Shown here: positions 4,701 through 46,366 of the stretch, in pieces
How positions within the stretch are numbered: position 1 is the first letter of the stretch
How the letters are laid out: the number at the start of each line of letters is the position of its first letter
DNA from: Schlesneria sp.
GTDB taxonomy: Bacteria > Planctomycetota > Planctomycetia > Planctomycetales > Planctomycetaceae
NCBI GenBank assembly: GCA_028291515.1
Contig: JAQGHU010000025.1
Location: 1-64,000, forward strand
Length of the DNA stretch: 64,000 bases
Direction of reading: 5' to 3'
The notes under the pieces: model-generated
The model's database searches: none
What the model was told of the DNA's origin: nothing
What the model saw: only the letters and a program-made list of their open reading frames with translations
Position numbers and translations under genes: made by a program

Positions 4701-6596
4701 TCACTGCTTCGGCATCTTGATGTCGAGTTTATCGTATCGTGGATCCCAGTTGGCTTCGCCAAACTTCATCCCAAATCCACTGGTCAACTCCCATTCGGCG
4801 CGACGAGCCCAAGGGGTGCCTGGATGACGCTGGATCACGTCCTTAAACTCGGCCATCGCGACTTCGTTCTGTTTCTTCAGCTCTGCCATATCGACCTTCG
4901 TCTGCCTGACTTGTTCCTTGTCGGGCTCAAGCATTTCCTTCACGCGGCGGATGTCCCAATAGTTGTTCTTGGGATCTTTCGGAACAGGTTTGTTCTTCTG
5001 ATGAGCGTCCAGCGACAGCAACAACTGGAACAGGCGAACGCGATAGGCCAGACACTGGGCATGCATCAGATCGTAGTTGGCGCGCCACCGTTCTGCGGGC
5101 TCTTTGTCTCGCAATTTCTTGACCGAATCCAGCAATTGAACCGCTTCATTCAGCATTCCCATCGCTCGCAATGCTCGATCAAAAGTCTCTTTGCCCTCCG
5201 TCGCAAATTGATTTGGATCAAGGCTGTAACGATGCTCCCGCATGTTCAGCTTCTCGTCTTTATGCGGATTCAACGTGACAATCACACGCCACTGGGCATC
5301 GCGGAATTTGCTGGCGTCACGCTCCTTGGCATACTCCATGCGAGAACTGATGTCCGGCAGGTACTCTTTCATATCCAGCATTTCAAACTTGCGCGCTTCC
5401 AGCGATCCGGCACCCGCCAGATTGTCTTCTTTACCCGGCAGCATGAAAAAGATGCCACCCGTCTGTTTCGCGATGCGCACCTGCTCATAAGGGCCAACCC
5501 CACTCGAGAACACATCCCAGCGACCATGCAGTCCGTCGAACTGCAGACATTCAGGAAACGCTGTTTCCGGGCCGCGATTGATCTGCAGCCAGTGCGTCAA
5601 ACCATACTTGGGATCGACCCATTTCAGGCGAGCATAGGGATAACCGAATACGGAATAGCGGCCCATGATATACACCGGGGCATCCGCGGATTTGCAGCGT
5701 TGAATCGCCTCCTCAACATGCTCGCCATCGTCGCCGGATTCGTCAGAGACGACGATCACGATCAGCTTTCGCTTCTGCCGAATTGCAGAGGTCCCGTATT
5801 TGCCGACAGCAGACGTGATGGCCGCACAGGTGTTCTCCAAGCCCGACTCGTCCACCTTGATCTTATCGATCGCCGCTTTGATGTCGTCTGCATTCGCGGT
5901 CGGTTTCTGCGTTTGCTCGGTGATCCCTTTGCCAAAACTCATGACTGAAGTCAGCAGAACTTCGTCCGAGGTCTTCAGTTTCGAATCATGCTTTTGGACC
6001 AACCCTAACTCTTCGTAAACCTTATAGAATCGCTCGCGGATCTCTTTCTGATCATCGGTCATGCTGTCCGATTCATCGAACAGCCAGACCACATGGACCC
6101 GGGACTCCCGCATCAGGCGGACAAGTTCCTGAGTGATCTGTCCTAACGCGGCTCCGTACCCCTCCACGACGCGACCGGTTTCTCCGGTTACCTGTCCTGT
6201 CCCCAAATCCTTACCGATGACATTGAACCCGGGAACATTCATCGCCCCCATGTTCACTCGGACTTCCGCCACACGCAGACTTTCCGCCTGTTCAATTCTT
6301 TGTTGAGCAACAGCGATTCCGCCGTTGCCGCCCCCGCCACTCGTCCCGGCACTCATCCCCACGGCCGTGGCACCCGTGACAAAGTTGACCGTCTCGGTCG
6401 CGACTGTCGATTCTTCGACATCCTTCGCGAACTCTTCCGGAGGGCGCTCTTCGGCATCGAACACCGTATCCAGCACCATCTGCAGATGTGCGAGCGGGCC
6501 TTCAAAGACAAGGAACGAGAGAGCGAAGAGAATGACGACGTGCAGGAGCACAGAGATGGTCATTGTGGTCAAACTGTCACGATTGATCTTGAACAT
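4701..6596 (-). CDS. vWA-domain protein with single N-terminal membrane anchor
   Basis: The product is 631 aa. An N-terminal TonB-like transmembrane helix (residues 10-31, ISVLLHVVILFALSFLVF) is followed by a Gly-rich linker. A von Willebrand factor A domain comes next, with a MIDAS-type metal site (VVWLFDESDSMTDDQ) and the later strand IVIVVSDESGDDGEH. The C-terminal third is helical and charged, including VIQRHPGTPWARRAEWEL, a phrase shared with its neighbour. ATG at 6596 is preceded by GGAG about 10 nt upstream. It is paralogous to the next gene upstream and followed by two TPR genes. This pairing suggests an envelope complex of unknown role; vWA domains usually mediate metal-dependent protein contacts. 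Confidence 0.8.
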   Translation of the reverse strand: MFKINRDSLTTMTISVLLHVVILFALSFLVFEGPLAHLQMVLDTVFDAEERPPEEFAKDVEESTVATETVNFVTGATAVGMSAGTSGGGGNGGIAVAQQRIEQAESLRVAEVRVNMGAMNVPGFNVIGKDLGTGQVTGETGRVVEGYGAALGQITQELVRLMRESRVHVVWLFDESDSMTDDQKEIRERFYKVYEELGLVQKHDSKLKTSDEVLLTSVMSFGKGITEQTQKPTANADDIKAAIDKIKVDESGLENTCAAITSAVGKYGTSAIRQKRKLIVIVVSDESGDDGEHVEEAIQRCKSADAPVYIMGRYSVFGYPYARLKWVDPKYGLTHWLQINRGPETAFPECLQFDGLHGRWDVFSSGVGPYEQVRIAKQTGGIFFMLPGKEDNLAGAGSLEARKFEMLDMKEYLPDISSRMEYAKERDASKFRDAQWRVIVTLNPHKDEKLNMREHRYSLDPNQFATEGKETFDRALRAMGMLNEAVQLLDSVKKLRDKEPAERWRANYDLMHAQCLAYRVRLFQLLLSLDAHQKNKPVPKDPKNNYWDIRRVKEMLEPDKEQVRQTKVDMAELKKQNEVAMAEFKDVIQRHPGTPWARRAEWELTSGFGMKFGEANWDPRYDKLDIKMPKQ

Positions 6597-23108: not shown

Positions 23109-23137
23109 TTGACAGCCTCTCTTCCGAAAACAATACT
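23109..23137 (+). promoter_or_regulatory. Candidate sigma-70-type promoter of the cysK-encapsulin operon
   Basis: A perfect TTGACA (23109-23114) is followed after 17 bp by AATACT (23132-23137, 4 of 6 matches to TATAAT). A start of transcription near 23144 would leave a leader of about 100 nt before cysK. An AT-rich stretch TTGTAATAGTTAATTA follows at 23143-23158 and could be an operator. The -35 region overlaps a TGACAGCCTCT motif that also occurs in dispersed repeats near 19.90 and 43.51 kb, so part of the match may be repeat sequence. Confidence 0.5.
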
Positions 23138-23246
23138 TACATTGTAATAGTTAATTAGACGGCTGCCGTGGTTGAACAGACGCACTTGGACGCGCATCCG
23201 CAGCATGTGGCTTTGAACAGCTCGACTGCTTGTGGAAAGGGAAAAG

Positions 23247-24248
23247 ATGCCCGTTTTTGGCGACAATCTAGAGTCGATCGGCCGCACGCCACTCGTTCGC
23301 ATCAACAGGCTGACAATTGGTTTAGGTGCGATAGTCCTCGCGAAGATTGAAGGTCGCAACCCTGCCTATAGCGTGAAGTGTCGAATCGGCGCGGCGATGG
23401 TCTGGGATGCCGAACAGCAGGGGCATTTGCGGCCGGGAATCAGCGTTGTTGAGGCCACCAGCGGAAATACCGGCATTGCCTTGGCCTATGCCTGTGCAGC
23501 TCGCGGATATCGCTTGCGCCTGGTCATGCCCGACACCATGTCGATCGAGCGCCGATCGATGCTCAAGGGTTTCGGCGCGGAACTAGTGCTGACGCCCGGT
23601 GCCGAAGGGATGAAGGGGGCGGTCGCGCGAGCAGAAGCGATTGCGAGTGACGCAGGCTGGTTCATGCCGCGCCAATTCGACAACCCCGCCAATCCGAAGA
23701 TCCACTTCCAGACGACGGCACCCGAGATTGACCGCGACACGGACGGTCAGGTTGATGTCTTCGTCAGCGGCGTGGGGACGGGGGGGACAATTACAGGTGT
23801 CGGCCAGTACTTCAAAAATGAGAAACGCCGCAAGTTGCACGTGGTTGCCGTGGAACCTGCCAGTAGTGCGGTGCTATCCGGTGGTGCGCCGGGTAAGCAC
23901 AAGATTCAGGGGATCGGTGCTGGTTTTATCCCCAGCGTCCTCGACCGGTCCATCATCGACGAAGTGTTGACAGTGACCGACGATGAGTCTGTGGCGATGG
24001 CCCGTCGACTGATGCTCGAAGAGGGCATTTCCTGCGGGATCAGTTGTGGTGCCGCAATGGCGGCGTCGTTGCGACTGGCGGCTCGGCCGGAGTTCGCTGG
24101 TAAGACGATTGTGACCGTGCTTCCCGATGCGGGGGAGCGGTATCTGTCGACATCTCTCTTTGATGGTCTGGCGACTCCAGATCCACAGCCGCCGCGTGAA
24201 CTTCCCTTTGTTCCAGATCCGTATCACTATGATCTCGGTGACGAATAG
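23247..24248 (+). CDS. cysK: Cysteine synthase (O-acetylserine sulfhydrylase)
   Basis: The product is 333 aa. Fold-type II PLP enzyme motifs are complete: NPAYSVKCR with the PLP lysine Lys44, [12 protein letters not shown] for substrate and phosphate binding, [12 protein letters not shown], and [11 protein letters not shown] near the C-terminus where PLP N1 is contacted. It converts O-acetylserine plus sulfide to cysteine. ATG 23247 has GGAAAGGGAAAAG just upstream; an in-frame GTG at 23232 is less likely. It is the first gene of a co-directional run of four (gaps 56, 56 and 134 bp) ending in a cysteine desulfurase, so its product is the substrate of the encapsulated enzyme. Confidence 0.92.
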
Positions 24249-24304
24249 GTCTGCGGCTCGATAACGTTCGCATTTGATCAGCTCAGCATTCAAGGACTTT
24301 GTAG

Positions 24305-25762
24305 ATGCCGGACAATTTGTTGCAGCGCAGCGTGACGACATCGGTCGCACGAAACCTGGCGAATACGACGAAGACATCGCCCAAGATGATGTCGATCACG
24401 CCTCGCTGGCTGCTCAGCCTACTGCCGTGGGTCCAGGTCGAAGGGGGGACGTATCGCGTCAACCGGACAAAGGTCGAGCTGAGTAAGGCTGAACGAATTG
24501 GGATCGAGTTCGCGAATGGCGTGGCTTCGTTCCCACCTGAATCTTTGCGTAGCGTCCCGCTGTTTTCCGGCCTTCCGGGCCCGGTGATTGATCGGATGGC
24601 GAAGAAATTCGCAACCCAGGAAGTCTCTCTGGGGAACAAGCTGGTTGTCGAAGGGAAGGGGGGCAATGAGTTCTTCATTATCGCCCACGGCCAGGTTGAA
24701 GTCCTCAGCAAGGGGGCTCACGGAACGGATCTGCGAATCGCTTTGCTCACCGAAGGGGAATTCTTCGGCGAAGTGGATGTGGTTTCCGACAAGCCGTCTG
24801 ATGTCACCATTCGGACGATCACTCCCTGCGTGTTAATGACCCTCTCTCGTAAAGATTTGGATGCCGTTCTGAAGGAACTGCCAAATCTGAAGACCGACTT
24901 CAAGAACGCGATCGACCAGCACGTGGAATTGCGTTCGACGGTCAACCGCTATGGCGAACGCAACATCGATCTGGTTTCGGGCTTTGCCGAGAACGTTGAG
25001 ATCCCCGAGACGTTCGTCGATTACTCGGCCCATCCGCGCGAATATTCCCTGTCGTCTGTACAGACCGTGGTGCGCGTTCACACGCGCGTCTCAGATCTCT
25101 ACAACGGCCCTTTCAATCAGCTTGAAGAGCAGATGCGGCTGACGATTGAAGGGATCAAAGAGCGTCAAGAATGGGAGCTGATTAACAGCCAGAAGTTCGG
25201 GTTGATCCATTCGGTCGATCCGGCAATGCGCATCAGCACCCGGTATGGCGCTCCGACCCCTGACGACCTGGATGAACTGCTCGCCCTCGTTTGGAAGAAG
25301 CCCGCCTTCTTTCTGGCGCATCCGAAAGCCATCGCGGCCTTCGAACGCGAATGTACTTGGCGTGGTGTGCCGCCGGTCACGATGAATCTATTCGGAACCC
25401 CAGTCATCATGTGGCGCGGTGTTCCGCTCGTTCCGTGTGACAAGCTGGAGATCAATAGCCGCTATCAGGCGAACCTGTCATTCGGCACGACCAGCATCCT
25501 GCTGCTGCGAGTCGGTGAAGCCGATCAGGGTGTCGTGGGCCTGCATCAAATGGGGATCTCGGGCGAGATCATGCCGAGTCTGTCAGCTCGCCTAATGGGG
25601 TTAGACAGCTTGGGTGTCGCGTCGTACCTGCTGACGTTGTACTTCTCGTGCGCGGTGCTGACGGACGACGCGCTGGGGGTGCTTGAAAATGTCGAAGTCG
25701 GCTATTACCACGACTATCGCGATCGTGGTCACAAGGGATTTGAAGACGGTTTGGGAATCTGA
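24305..25762 (+). CDS. Family 2B encapsulin shell protein with cyclic-nucleotide-binding-like domain, copy 1
   Basis: The product is 485 aa. Residues 1-75 form the N-terminal arm and start of the HK97 shell fold (SVARNLANTTKTSPKMMSIT, RWLLSLLPWV). Residues about 80-205 are a Crp-like cyclic-nucleotide-binding fold (SVPLFSGL, FFIIAHGQVEVLSKG, LLTEGEFFGEVDVV). Residues about 205-485 return to the shell P- and A-domains (YNGPFNQLEEQMRLT, YGAPTPDDLDELLALVW, RVGEADQGVVGLHQ). There is no helix-turn-helix, so it is not a Crp regulator. Sixty-copy shells of this family are known to house cysteine desulfurases or terpene enzymes. AAGGA lies 8 nt before the start. It is followed by a near-identical second copy and then a desulfurase with a cargo-type leader. 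Confidence 0.92.
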   Translation: MPDNLLQRSVTTSVARNLANTTKTSPKMMSITPRWLLSLLPWVQVEGGTYRVNRTKVELSKAERIGIEFANGVASFPPESLRSVPLFSGLPGPVIDRMAKKFATQEVSLGNKLVVEGKGGNEFFIIAHGQVEVLSKGAHGTDLRIALLTEGEFFGEVDVVSDKPSDVTIRTITPCVLMTLSRKDLDAVLKELPNLKTDFKNAIDQHVELRSTVNRYGERNIDLVSGFAENVEIPETFVDYSAHPREYSLSSVQTVVRVHTRVSDLYNGPFNQLEEQMRLTIEGIKERQEWELINSQKFGLIHSVDPAMRISTRYGAPTPDDLDELLALVWKKPAFFLAHPKAIAAFERECTWRGVPPVTMNLFGTPVIMWRGVPLVPCDKLEINSRYQANLSFGTTSILLLRVGEADQGVVGLHQMGISGEIMPSLSARLMGLDSLGVASYLLTLYFSCAVLTDDALGVLENVEVGYYHDYRDRGHKGFEDGLGI

Positions 25763-25818
25763 TTATTTACCGGTGTCATTGGTGATTCATTTGTTTTTGG
25801 TATGAAGGATCGGGCTTT

Positions 25819-27258
25819 ATGTCGGACAATTTGTTGCAGCGCAGTGTGACGACATCGGTCGCACGGAATCTGGCAAACACGACCAAGACATCACCGAAGA
25901 TGATGTCGATCACGCCACGCTGGCTGCTCAGCCTGCTGCCGTGGGTTCAGGTCGACGGCGGCACCTACCGTGTCAACCGGACCAAGGTGGAACTCACGAA
26001 GGCCGAGCGGATCGGCATCGATAGCACCAAAGGGGTGTTGTCGTTCGCTTCTGAGTCTCTCCGCAGTGTGCCGCTGTTCTCGGGGCTGCCTGCCTCGGTG
26101 ACGGCTCGCATGGCAGCGAAATTCAAAACCGAAGAAGTCTCGCTCGGTAATAAGCTGATTGTCGAAGGCGAAGACGGCAACAAGTTCTTCGTGATCGCTC
26201 AGGGCCAGGTTGAAGTCCTCAGCAAGGGGGCTCACGGGACCGATCTGCGAATCGCCCTGCTGACCGAAGGAGAATTCTTCGGCGAAGCCGACGTGGTCTC
26301 CGATAAGCCGTCAGACGTCACCATTCGGACGATCACTCCGTGCGTGTTGCTCACGCTGTCGCGGAAGGATCTGGACGCGGTTCTGAAGGAACTGCCGAAC
26401 TTGAAGACCGATTTCAAGAAGGCCATCGACGAGCATATCGAACTCCGTTCGACCGTGAATCGTTATGGCGAACGCAATATCGACCTGGTGTCAGGCTTTG
26501 CCGAGAACGTCGAAATCCCCGAGACATTCGTCGACTATTCCGCCCATCCACGCGAGTATTCGATGTCGGCCGTACAGACAGTCGTCCGCGTGCATACTCG
26601 CGTCTCTGACCTCTACAACGGTCCCTACAATCAGCTTGAAGAGCAGATGCGGCTGACGATTGAAGGGATCAAAGAGCGTCAGGAATGGGAGTTGATTAAC
26701 AGCAAGAAGTTCGGGTTGATCCATTCGGCTGATCCGGCAATGCGGATCAGCACGCGCTATGGAGCCCCGACACCTGACGATCTGGATGAGTTGCTCGCCC
26801 TCGTCTGGAAAAAGCCCGCATTCTTTCTGGCCCACCCGAAAGCCATCGCGGCGTTCGAACGCGAATGCACGTGGCGCGGGGTGCCACCGGTCACGATGAA
26901 TCTGTTCGGAACCCCTGTCATCATGTGGCGCGGCGTGCCACTGGTTCCTTGCGACAAGCTGGAAATGAAGAGCCGCTATCAGTCGAACCAATGGTTCGGC
27001 ACGACCAGCATTCTGTTGCTTCGAGTCGGCGAAGCAGATCAGGGAGTCGTGGGTCTGCATCAGGCCGGTATCCCTGGCGAGATCATGCCGAGCTTGTCTG
27101 CTCGATTGATGGGCCTCGACAGCTTGGGCGTCGCGTCATATTTGTTGACGTTGTACTTCTCGTGCGCCGTGCTGACGGACGATGCCCTGGGCGTGCTGGA
27201 AAATGTCGAGGTCGGTTACTACCACGACTACGAACACCGCAAAGCGACTCCCAAGTAA
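25819..27258 (+). CDS. Family 2B encapsulin shell protein with cyclic-nucleotide-binding-like domain, copy 2
   Basis: The product is 479 aa, collinear with copy 1. By hand alignment about 40 of the first 472 residues differ (roughly 91% identity). Substitutions cluster at residues 60-130, which cover the inserted-domain entrance, and at 383-420. The arm (residues 3-45) and residues 206-380 are nearly invariant. The C-terminal tails are unrelated: this copy ends EHRKATPK, copy 1 ends RDRGHKGFEDGLGI. AAGGA lies 9 nt upstream of ATG. Abundant silent differences show an old duplication under purifying selection. The two products probably co-assemble into a mixed shell, as in described two-component family 2B systems. 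Confidence 0.92.
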   Translation: MSDNLLQRSVTTSVARNLANTTKTSPKMMSITPRWLLSLLPWVQVDGGTYRVNRTKVELTKAERIGIDSTKGVLSFASESLRSVPLFSGLPASVTARMAAKFKTEEVSLGNKLIVEGEDGNKFFVIAQGQVEVLSKGAHGTDLRIALLTEGEFFGEADVVSDKPSDVTIRTITPCVLLTLSRKDLDAVLKELPNLKTDFKKAIDEHIELRSTVNRYGERNIDLVSGFAENVEIPETFVDYSAHPREYSMSAVQTVVRVHTRVSDLYNGPYNQLEEQMRLTIEGIKERQEWELINSKKFGLIHSADPAMRISTRYGAPTPDDLDELLALVWKKPAFFLAHPKAIAAFERECTWRGVPPVTMNLFGTPVIMWRGVPLVPCDKLEMKSRYQSNQWFGTTSILLLRVGEADQGVVGLHQAGIPGEIMPSLSARLMGLDSLGVASYLLTLYFSCAVLTDDALGVLENVEVGYYHDYEHRKATPK

Positions 27259-27315
27259 GCGGTCCCGTCCGACGCGTCAGTGACTCTCTTTGATGGTACA
27301 GAGCTTCCCACTTCA

Positions 27316-27380
27316 TTGTGGCGTCCCGCGAGCTGAAAACCGTTGAGTCTAACCCATGCTTGAACGCGACACACTAAAAA
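27316..27380 (+). repeat. Dispersed repeat TGTGGCGTCCCGCG...GTCTAACCCATG, copy A
   Basis: This copy lies in the 134-bp gap between encapsulin copy 2 and the desulfurase gene. It shares TGTGGCGTCCCGCG, then a variable 18 nt, then GTCTAACCCATG, then AACGCGACAC and ACTAAAA with copy B at 30781-30857. In both places the repeat ends just before a gene start, so it may contribute a leader or RNA structure, or it may be a mobile scar. Confidence 0.7.
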
Positions 27381-27392
27381 CTGGATCGGCCG

Positions 27393-29126
27393 ATGAACGA
27401 AGTGACACCCGACCTGATCGCGCAGATTGCCTCGCGGATGCTGAACGAACTCCCTGGCACGCCGTCCGCTCCCACGGGCATTCCGGAATTACCTTTTGGA
27501 GCAGGTCAGTCGATGCCGCACGTTCCGAGCAGCCCGTCAATGGCATCGGTCACGACGATCGCCCCGACGTCGCAGATGCCATCGCTGCCAGAGATGCCGT
27601 CGCCTAATTCGGGAACGTTTCAAACTCCGATTCCAGGCACTTCACTGCCAGGAATGGCACTACCTTCAATGTCGCTGCCGACTCTGCCATCGCAGATTAC
27701 GTTTCCCTGGTCCGTTGCCGATGTTCCTCAGGGATCAAGCTCAGCGGCAACAGGACAGGCTGGTCAATATGACGGGCTGAAGGCGTTTGTCGAGAAGCTG
27801 CGAAGCACGAACAGTCGCTCACAAGGGGGACTGTGTGCCGAGTCGCCCGAGCAATCGATTCTGCATCGATTGCTCTCAGGGAACAACGCGTTGACCCCAG
27901 CCACCGGAGCCCGTCCCTTTGATGTGGCGTCGATCCGCAAGGACTTTCCGGTCTTGCATCAGCAGGTGCATGGTAAACCGCTGGTCTGGCTCGACAACGC
28001 CGCGACGACTCAAAAGCCGCAGAGCGTGATCGATTCGATCTCGAACTATTACTCGAAGGATAACTCCAACATCCATCGCGGCGCGCACACGCTGGCTGCC
28101 CGATCGACCGATGCTTTCGAACAGGCCCGTGAAAAGGTGCAGCGCTTCATCGGAGCGTCCTCGGCGAAAGAAATCATCTACGTTCGCGGCACGACCGAAG
28201 GGATCAATCTCATCGCCCAGACCTATGGTCGCAAGTTCCTGCAACCGGGCGACGAAATCATTCTGTCGACTCTGGAGCATCATGCGAACATCGTCCCGTG
28301 GCAGATGGTCGCCAAAGAGAAGGGGGCTGTGATTCGCGTGATCCCCGTGAACGATCGCGGCGAGGTCATGCTCCAACAGTATCAGGCTTTGCTGGGCCCT
28401 CGCACTCGATTGGTCTCGCTGGCTCACGCGTCTAACGCCTTGGGCACGATTCTGCCGGTCGTCGAAATGATCCAGATGGCGAAGCGCTTCAACGCCCGAG
28501 TGCTCGTCGATGGTGCTCAGTCGGTGGCTCACCTGCCGGTGAACGTGCAGCAATGGGATGTCGACTTCTTCGTCTTCTCGGGCCACAAGATTTTCGGCCC
28601 GACGGGGATCGGTGCGGTCTTCGCGAAAGAAGAACTGCAAGAAATCATGCCGCCGTGGCAGGGTGGCGGAAACATGATCAAGAACGTCACCTTCGAAGAG
28701 ACCACATACAGCCCACCGCCAGCGAAGTTCGAAGCGGGAACTCCCAACATCGCCGATGCAGTCGGGTTGGGTGCGGCACTCGATTATGTTAATCGGCTCG
28801 GGTTGTCGAACATCGCCAAGTACGAGCATGAGCTGCTGGAATACGGCACTGAAAAGCTACGCGAGATCAACGGACTGCGCTTAATCGGGACCGCTCGCGA
28901 GAAAGTCGGCGTACTGTCATTCGTGCTGCCCAATCGCCGCACAGAAGAAATCGGTCGAGCCTTGGATGCCGAAGGAATCGCCGTTCGTTCAGGCCACCAC
29001 TGTGCTCAGCCATCGCTGCGACGTTTCGGCGTAGAAACAACCGTCAGGCCATCGCTTTCGCTCTATAACACCAAGGACGATCTCGATCGTCTGGCGGATG
29101 CCGTCCGCCGAATTCAGCGAACGTAG
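27393..29126 (+). CDS. SufS-type cysteine desulfurase with long disordered N-terminal leader (encapsulin cargo)
   Basis: The product is 577 aa, about 170 longer than ordinary SufS. Residues 1-20 (MNEVTPDLIAQIASRMLNEL) could form a short helix. Residues 21-125 are low-complexity and rich in Pro, Ser, Met and Thr (LPGMALPSMSLPTLPSQ). Residues 126-175 link to the catalytic domain. That domain begins at about 176 and is complete: DNAATTQKP, the PLP lysine Lys399 in SGHKIFGPTG, and the catalytic Cys537 in RSGHHCAQPSLRRFG. It releases sulfur from cysteine as a persulfide and leaves alanine. Comparable unstructured leaders target desulfurases into family 2 encapsulins. The gene directly follows two shell genes and shares their direction. 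Confidence 0.93.
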   Translation: MNEVTPDLIAQIASRMLNELPGTPSAPTGIPELPFGAGQSMPHVPSSPSMASVTTIAPTSQMPSLPEMPSPNSGTFQTPIPGTSLPGMALPSMSLPTLPSQITFPWSVADVPQGSSSAATGQAGQYDGLKAFVEKLRSTNSRSQGGLCAESPEQSILHRLLSGNNALTPATGARPFDVASIRKDFPVLHQQVHGKPLVWLDNAATTQKPQSVIDSISNYYSKDNSNIHRGAHTLAARSTDAFEQAREKVQRFIGASSAKEIIYVRGTTEGINLIAQTYGRKFLQPGDEIILSTLEHHANIVPWQMVAKEKGAVIRVIPVNDRGEVMLQQYQALLGPRTRLVSLAHASNALGTILPVVEMIQMAKRFNARVLVDGAQSVAHLPVNVQQWDVDFFVFSGHKIFGPTGIGAVFAKEELQEIMPPWQGGGNMIKNVTFEETTYSPPPAKFEAGTPNIADAVGLGAALDYVNRLGLSNIAKYEHELLEYGTEKLREINGLRLIGTAREKVGVLSFVLPNRRTEEIGRALDAEGIAVRSGHHCAQPSLRRFGVETTVRPSLSLYNTKDDLDRLADAVRRIQRT

Positions 29127-45433: not shown

Positions 45434-46366
45434 TTACGACGCTTGCCGCATGCGCAGCGTCGGTTTCTCCAGCGTCACCACGGTGTTCGGTGGCACGCTT
45501 TCATAGACCGAGGCACTGGCCCCGATGACCGAGTTTCGCCCGATCGTCGTCGTTCCGCCCAGCACGGTCGCATTGGCGTAGATCACGACGTTTTCTTCAA
45601 TCGTCGGATGCCGCTTTGAGGTGCGGACCAGATTGCCTTCGTCGTCTTTCGTGAAGCTCAACGCCCCTAGCGTCACCCCTTGATACAGCTTCACACCGGA
45701 TGCGATTTCGGTCGTCGCACCGATGACGACACCTGTCCCGTGATCGATAAAGAACGACGGGCCGATCGTCGCGCCGGGATGGATGTCGATCCCTGTGCGA
45801 CCGTGCGCCCACTCGGACAACATGCGAGGGATCAGCGGCACCTTCAGCTTGTGCAGTTCATGCGCCAGACGATAGATCGTGATCGCTTCCAGGCCGGGAT
45901 AGCAGAAGATGATTTCATCCAGGCTGCCGGCCGCAGGGTCACCGTCGTAGGCCGCCTGCACATCGGTCGCCAGCAATCGGCGGACATCGGGCAGGCTCTG
46001 CAAAAACTGAATCGCCTTTTCTTGACCTGATGCTTCGAAGTCCGGCTGAACCTCACCGCAGGCAATCTGATTCTTGCGACGGAAGTCGTGACGCAGTGCG
46101 CGGGTGATCTGTTGCGTCAGTCGATCATGCAGACCGTCAATCAAATCACCGACGTGATAAGTGACGTTGCCAAAGTGCAGATTCTGCCGCTTGCGATAGC
46201 CGGGGTAGAGAATCTCTTTCAGCGTCTCGGCAACCTCGACCACCGCATCCATGCTGGGCAACGGGCAGTGACCCAAATGATTGATGGTGGCGATTTCGTG
46301 ATAGGTGTCGACGATGCGATCCGTCAAATCGGGAAGCAGATCCTTCAGTCGAATGTCTGTCGCCAT
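45434..46366 (-). CDS. Serine O-acetyltransferase (EpsC/CysE-like)
   Basis: The product is 310 aa. After a helical N-terminal half (about 170 residues), the left-handed beta-helix with hexapeptide repeats is evident: [44 protein letters not shown], then [20 protein letters not shown]. The catalytic His of FIDHGTG is present. It acetylates serine to O-acetylserine, the substrate of CysK. The C-terminus lacks the long CysK-binding tail ending in Ile; it ends LRMRQAS. Such genes often accompany desulfurase-type encapsulin operons, but this one is 16 kb away from the shell genes. Confidence 0.9.

Follow-up and report, generated by a model that had tools for sequence, protein, structure and literature searches.

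Family 2A encapsulins store sulfur. This role is cited in PMC12407261, a passage of which also places two-shell operons with a desulfurase among five operon types, and 199 family 2B operons with a desulfurase, from nine phyla, are reported in a passage of PMC8346489. The published two-shell pairs are about 60% identical according to the same part of PMC8346489, and a passage of PMC12407261 (2025) left the functional logic of the two shell proteins to future work. Here we describe an operon of this kind from Schlesneria sp. (contig JAQGHU010000025.1, positions 1 to 64,000; this whole stretch of 64,000 nucleotides is called the window) in which a cysteine synthase gene (cysK) precedes genes for two shell proteins, Enc1 and Enc2, and a SufS-type cysteine desulfurase. 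An initial annotation had considered this combination, in a planctomycete, to be little described. That claim holds only in part. 2B shells with a desulfurase and two-shell desulfurase operons are already in print. No discussion of the planctomycete clade was found in the open-licence full text searched, and the only passage with 'planctomyc' in PMC8346489 concerns family 1 shells of anammox bacteria. The nearest named record (L023) is from an uncultured Schlesneria sp. (100% for shell 2 and 96% for shell 1), in keeping with a planctomycete host.

A C-terminal tail that is restricted to the first shell protein had been overlooked in the initial annotation. The tail resembles the C-terminus of CysE (serine acetyltransferase), the protein that docks on CysK in the cysteine synthase complex. 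We propose, with a probability of roughly 0.65, a two-shell, desulfurase-type 2B encapsulin whose upstream shell protein has a second role as the subunit that docks cysteine synthase. Operons with this combination of genes are already known. The tail of CysE type on a shell protein, however, seems to be new as far as the open-licence searches reach, since neither a shell tail of this type nor CysK docking in encapsulins was found in them. The features of the operon are as follows.

23232-24248, + strand: CysK (cysteine synthase A, O-acetylserine sulfhydrylase), GTG start, with an in-frame ATG at 23247; profile match
24305-25762, + strand: Enc1, upstream (tailed) family 2B encapsulin shell, 485 aa; open reading frame (ORF) and profile match
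24539-24925, + strand: cyclic nucleotide monophosphate (cNMP)-binding-like domain of Enc1, about residues 79-207
24932-25702, + strand: HK97-fold core (SrpI-like, PF19307) of Enc1
25736-25759, + strand: C-terminal tail of Enc1 resembling that of CysE (residues 478-485, GFEDGLGI); sequence comparison
25819-27258, + strand: Enc2, downstream (basic-tailed) family 2B shell, 479 aa, C-terminus EHRKATPK
26446-27216, + strand: HK97-fold core of Enc2
27393-29126, + strand: SufS-type cysteine desulfurase and putative cargo, 577 aa, of which roughly the first 175 form the leader
27402-27458, + strand: recurrent N-terminal motif of the desulfurase leader, here VTPDLIAQIASRMLNELPG; candidate loading element
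23109-23137, + strand: promoter-like site TTGACA-17-AATACT upstream of cysK; pattern count at chance level

Two shell proteins with similar bodies and different tails

Enc1 and Enc2 each scored 593 bits against the NCBIfam family 2B model NF041163 (cut-off 400), and they also matched the NCBIfam 2A model (432 and 428 bits, cut-off 380). Pfam placed cNMP_binding (PF00027) at residues 109-190, ahead of the SrpI-like HK97 domain (PF19307; 381 and 384 bits) at residues 210-466. Enc1 aligned over nearly its full length to the solved 2B shells 9bje (404 bits), 9bhu (372 bits) and 9bix (372 bits), of which 9bje and 9bix were assigned to Streptomyces lydicus chains in this analysis from diagnostic motifs; the match to SrpI (6x8m, 358 bits) covered the N-arm and the HK97 core. 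The two 2B shell genes lie within 10 kb of each other and each encodes at least 400 aa, as two-component systems are defined in PMC12407261. By these matches both shells belong to the family 2B encapsulins.

The phosphate cassette of cNMP domains contains an arginine. The cNMP-like domain of the operon reads GEFFGE..VVSDKPSDVTIR and has no such residue. As a passage of PMC12407261 also states that the 2B domain of this type binds no cyclic nucleotide, control of the shell by cyclic AMP was rejected.

The two copies are 90.2% identical (432/479), with 95% identity in the HK97 core and 86% in the cNMP-like domain, and their synonymous (dS) and nonsynonymous (dN) divergences are 0.87 and 0.063. 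Published diagnostic motifs 1 and 2 of Enc1 and Enc2 are not differentiated here, as both copies have VWKK and NLFGTPVIMWRG, which rules out these motifs as the basis of a division of labour.

Named genomes were scanned with Enc2, and the best 80 of 143 matches, constituting 78 loci, were kept; the sample is biased toward relatives of Enc2 and its records are titled as metagenome bins. The arrangement shell-shell-desulfurase, often preceded or followed by cysK, occurred in Planctomycetota, Geobacteraceae and one Leptospiraceae bin, and Chlorobiaceae loci had one shell with cysK mostly upstream. Recurrence of the layout in many related genomes argues that it is not due to chance. When 294 genomes were sampled evenly across the phylum, a match at E <= 1e-90 was present in 17 and one above the 2B cut-off in 10; in 13 of the 17 the match was confined to the HK97 core and the frames were short and 2A-like.

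Every full-length upstream copy in the loci ended in GxGI (31/31), and no downstream copy did (0/29). The same ending was present in 10 of 29 single shells and in 4 of 12 shells of unclear position; the 19 single shells that lacked it comprised 16 from Chlorobiaceae as well as those of L054, L055 and L079, the last of which runs off its contig. Among the best 120 homologues, 85 had a GxGI end and 35 a lysine end. Fimbriiglobus ruber also has a related shell (P0097). When the loci were dereplicated to 18, alignment positions 478-485 alone separated upstream from downstream copies perfectly, compared with 0.86 for the best column of the body. In these 18 loci the upstream copies end in F-x-x-G-x-G-I and the downstream copies in lysine: Phe479 (18/18 upstream) stands opposite Lys (18/18 downstream), and Gly482, Gly484 and Ile485 (each 18/18 upstream) stand opposite gaps.

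The bodies of the proteins gave a different picture from the tails. In a tree of 101 full-length shells, both copies of several loci, including those of the window, paired together, and in 11 of the 18 dereplicated loci no other upstream copy was as close to the upstream copy as its own partner (in the remaining 7 this did not hold). Grouping of the upstream copies as one clade was rejected after removal of the tails (p-AU 5.9e-89), and the position label on the tail-less tree required 13 changes versus a shuffled mean of 13.3, which is no better placed than chance. Most simply, an old duplication would have been followed by repeated gene conversion that kept the bodies alike, with selection maintaining one tailed and one differently tailed subunit. 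Alternatively, repeated duplication followed by convergence of the tails may have occurred, which would need the same selection.

Several loci had peculiarities of their own. Three loci of the same genus (L003, L004 and L005) contain an extra single 2B shell that adjoins a desulfurase and is 54-55% identical to Enc2; in L004 and L005 it has no tail and its C-terminus is NHYHD. The first shell gene of L066 (5473-6936) is split by a frame break into pieces of 222 aa and 226 aa, the second of which bears the tail, and an internal stop interrupts the upstream copy of genome G006 (L010); either may be an assembly error. Two bins titled Candidatus Kuenenia stuttgartiensis (L037 and L055) have shells that group with those of other planctomycetes, and the titles look doubtful.

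The tail resembles the C-terminus of CysE

The tail follows a variable linker and ends in F-x-x-G-L/S-G-I. Among 35 distinct tails, which were chosen by their GxGI ending, 34 have F or Y at position -7; that G, G and I never vary in this set follows from the choice and is no evidence of conservation, a restriction that does not affect the 31/31 and 18/18 counts. The 42 distinct DNA tails draw on all four codons for Gly and all three for Ile, and this variation at the Gly, Gly and Ile positions points to selection on the peptide.

The C-terminus of E. coli CysE, INHTFEYGDGI, is flexible and enters the CysK active site (PMC6829319, in the part available), and its terminal Ile contributes about 80% of the CysE-CysK binding energy (a passage of PMC12895370). 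The CdiA toxin binds CysK through a GYGI end, and other CysK partners use the same device (PMC12895370, same part). One CysE of the host, encoded on contig C32 directly after another cysK, ends in EHDGGSGI, and CysE of related Schlesneria in HHFEDGSGI. In seven Chlorobiaceae loci a CysE gene lies between cysK and the shell gene, and its product ends in FTDGLGI or FIDGLGI (e.g. SSFTDGLGI).

We counted this ending across the loci and the window stretch, which together have 651 ORFs with 150 codons or more; 99 of these are shell ORFs, and one shell fragment was set aside. Among the non-shell ORFs, 11 of 14 CysE proteins had a GxGI end compared with 3 of 537 others (Fisher p 4e-18; the rows are not independent because of near-copies, and the CysE queries themselves were tailed). 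The three others are an Rrf2-type regulator (L025), a protein before cysK (L041) and an ABC transporter ATPase (L093).

Two Rrf2-family regulators are encoded beside desulfurase encapsulin loci, at 3678-4184 of L025 (GGDGI end) and at 4995-5456 of L049 (NGDGI end). Docking of CymR on CysK has been reported in Bacillus (a passage of PMC12895370), and by analogy the tailed Rrf2 regulators may also dock on CysK. The L041 protein (5480-5980) consists of 166 aa, has no Pfam match and ends in GGFVGMGI, and its gene lies just before cysK; it is possibly another CysK-docking protein.

The partner CysK and its relatives in the genome

The operon CysK retains 14 of the 15 residues that contact the CysE tail as listed in the available part of PMC12895370, the position of Pro225 being Lys. 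Across 43 CysK proteins of the loci, 13 to 15 of the 15 are kept; C60, the most distant listed CysKM relative checked in the host genome, has 9. The nearest solved relatives of the operon CysK are 5xoq, which we take to hold a transcription-factor peptide, and 5xa2, at about 523 bits, with the next at no more than 384. The first of these is the Planctomyces limnophilus enzyme, as named in a passage of PMC12785664.

The host genome contains two further matches above the cysKM cut-off, and C60 falls below it at 326 bits. It also contains three CysE-like genes, none above the model cut-off, and a 445-codon frame with a strong aminotransferase-V match (C80) that is perhaps the housekeeping SufS. 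Given these additional cysKM, aminotransferase-V and CysE-like genes elsewhere, the genes of the operon appear to be extra copies with a dedicated role.

The length of the operon CysK, 338 aa, is equal to that of L023 and exceeds that in the other loci (at most 330 aa). Its C-terminus is extended by some 25 residues rich in proline (24162-24245).

The desulfurase and the organisation of the operon

The desulfurase scored 559 bits against TIGR01979 sufS (cut-off 475) and 783.6 bits against the encapsulin-cargo model NF041166, just under the cut-off of 800. The latter match involved profile positions 212-623 and left the leader uncovered. The catalytic Cys motif is RSGHHC, and across the loci 59 of 63 desulfurase ORFs contain RxGHHC. 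The leader opens with a TPDLIAxIAxRxLNELPG-type stretch, and TP(D/E)LIAxIATRLLNE-type stretches recur in loci of Planctomycetota, Geobacteraceae and Leptospiraceae, making this a candidate loading signal. A leader motif in common with CyD of S. elongatus (PYYF) was considered and rejected: PYYFLR occurs in 13 leaders of the set but is absent from the leader encoded in the window.

The initial annotation was accurate about the genes. All four co-directional genes were found as placed, with gaps of 56, 56 and 134 bp, and only the start of CysK moved, to 23232. NCBIfam and Pfam matches agreed with the named products, a CysK, two HK97-fold shells with a Crp-like domain and a SufS-type desulfurase, and the long leader is the segment of about 175 aa before the SufS-type domain. 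The profile comparison of both shells with 2A and 2B models that it had suggested came out above the 2B cut-off. Its tie to cysteine metabolism likewise holds. The product of the gene that heads the operon matches TIGR01139 (445 bits, cut-off 351) and does not pass the CysM model.

Given the short co-directional gaps, a single transcript over the four genes is plausible. The promoter-like site lies about 95 bp before the cysK GTG, and 2 such patterns were counted versus a shuffled mean of 2.7, which is the chance level. Between 22950 and 29500 there were 2 terminator matches, fewer than the shuffled mean of 5.6, and Rfam at gathering thresholds identified no RNA element between 22500 and 30000.

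Proposed mechanism and alternatives

A central feature of the model is CysE-type enzyme docking, in which the cage probably carries CysK on its surface. Enc1 and Enc2 would co-assemble around the desulfurase as their presumed cargo, and the Enc1 tail, mimicking CysE, would tether CysK reversibly to the compartment. The extended C-terminus of SrpI is located close to the A-domain and elevates the five-fold vertices, at which a 3.7 A pore is the proposed entry for cysteine (PMC8049743, in the part available). Because the Enc1 tail continues from the position that matches the SrpI C-terminus, it should project near the five-fold pores, and the tether site is probably on the outer vertices close to them. 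The 14 residues from the conserved YYHDY to the end could allow the tail to reach a CysK active site. O-acetylserine, rising in sulfur hunger, would displace CysK, such that the shell would join cysteine synthesis outside to desulfuration inside and would sense sulfur status. The product may be stored sulfur, by analogy with family 2A. Mixed shells of variable composition were shown for S. lydicus in a passage of PMC12407261; with mixed shells here, Enc2, which bears its own basic tail, would dilute the tails and set their density. A tail on the first shell only offers a role for the two shells and for cysK at the head of the operon. We give slightly better than even odds to the complete picture, in which one shell protein is a CysE mimic and, around the pores that feed the desulfurase, the surface of the shell acts as a cysteine synthase complex that is multivalent and under metabolite control.

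Several observations weigh against docking. Among fully flanked loci (at least 4 kb on both sides, with cysK counted if co-directional and within 4 kb), cysK is near a tailed shell in 13 of 21 (24 of 48 overall), and it is near the shell in all 12 loci without a counted tail (21 of 30 overall). Those 12 are 11 Chlorobiaceae loci, 6 of them with a tailed CysE, and L066 with its frame-broken tailed copy. Where no cysK is nearby, docking would rely on a CysK encoded elsewhere. In the host and its relatives, only 9 of the 32 CysE-like loci have GxGI, 9 have another Ile end and 14 have neither; the CysE-like gene of the window itself (45434-46366, - strand) lacks a docking tail and ends in RMRQAS. 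The tail was found in none of 120 sampled 2A shells (0/120 end in GI or I) and in none of 14 short planctomycete shells (0/14), and the tail-less 2A shells imply that desulfurase encapsulins in general do not need it. Finally, CysK is inhibited when such a tail is bound, and docking would not necessarily amount to channelling.

In one alternative, the tail binds CysK to sequester and inhibit it, and the shell is a sulfur-status switch that competes with CysE and an Rrf2 regulator for CysK instead of supplying cysteine from its surface. Within the cysteine synthase complex, which comes apart in the presence of O-acetylserine, CysK is inhibited (passages of PMC6829319 and PMC5562914), and the Rrf2 regulators with GDGI ends beside L025 and L049 would suit such competition. 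Against it, possibly only one active site of each CysK dimer is occupied and the other is free (PMC6829319, same part). Provided that docking occurs, we consider sequestration somewhat short of an even chance; it shares the docking step with the model of a tethered cysteine synthase, and the two cannot be told apart from sequence alone.

Alternatively, the tail could have a structural part in the shell, in vertex packing, or could bind the desulfurase cargo, with its likeness to CysE a coincidence and the locus an ordinary two-shell 2B operon. The tail does prolong the C-terminal extension that shapes the five-fold vertex in SrpI (PMC8049743, same part), no cysK is found close to 8 of the 21 fully flanked tailed loci, and 23 of the 32 CysE-like proteins lack GxGI. 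However, shells aside, GxGI is nearly limited to CysE in the loci, the ending is common to two CysE types and Rrf2 regulators, the linker before the tail is variable as in a docking motif, and the downstream copy and the Chlorobiaceae single shells manage without a tail. We regard this explanation as unlikely. The third possibility, a recent tandem duplicate without division of labour, is suggested by the 90% identity, well above that of published pairs, and by the undifferentiated motifs, but it is very improbable, as dS 0.87 with dN 0.063 is neither recent nor relaxed and tail type tracks gene position in all 18 dereplicated loci; it was rejected on these grounds.

If docking is true, a two-component encapsulin would have a defined division of labour and would recruit an outside enzyme by molecular mimicry, a metabolite-sensitive clamp would hold that enzyme beside compartment pores, and encapsulin shells would join the short list of users of the CysE tail. 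The tail would also provide a ready-made peptide tag for enzyme coats on nanocages.

Comparison with known systems

The operon shares with the described 2B desulfurase encapsulins, including two-component ones, the SrpI-like HK97 shell with a cNMP-like insertion, the adjacent pair of shell genes and the desulfurase with a disordered leader (passages of PMC8346489 and PMC12407261). It differs from them, as far as those passages go, in its 90% identical pair, undifferentiated motifs, CysE-type tail difference and cysK at the head. The two-component encapsulin of S. lydicus (PMC12407261, in part) is homologous over nearly the full length (404 and 372 bits for Enc1), but its chains stop at the alignment position of VEVG/VEIGH and are tail-less, and its operon is a xylulose-kinase operon. 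The 2A SrpI-desulfurase system (a passage of PMC8049743) has the same kind of desulfurase cargo, shell core and link to cysteine metabolism; unlike the shells described here, 2A shells lack the cNMP-like domain, are single and in the sample of 120 never end in GI or I. Finally, the CysE-CysK complex and the CysK partners CdiA-CT, EGL-9 and CymR use a C-terminal Ile tail (PMC12895370, in part), with G-x-G-I also in CysE and CdiA, and the CysK of the operon has the matching pocket. Unlike in those partners, the bearer of the putative docking tail here is a capsid-fold shell subunit and could be multivalent.

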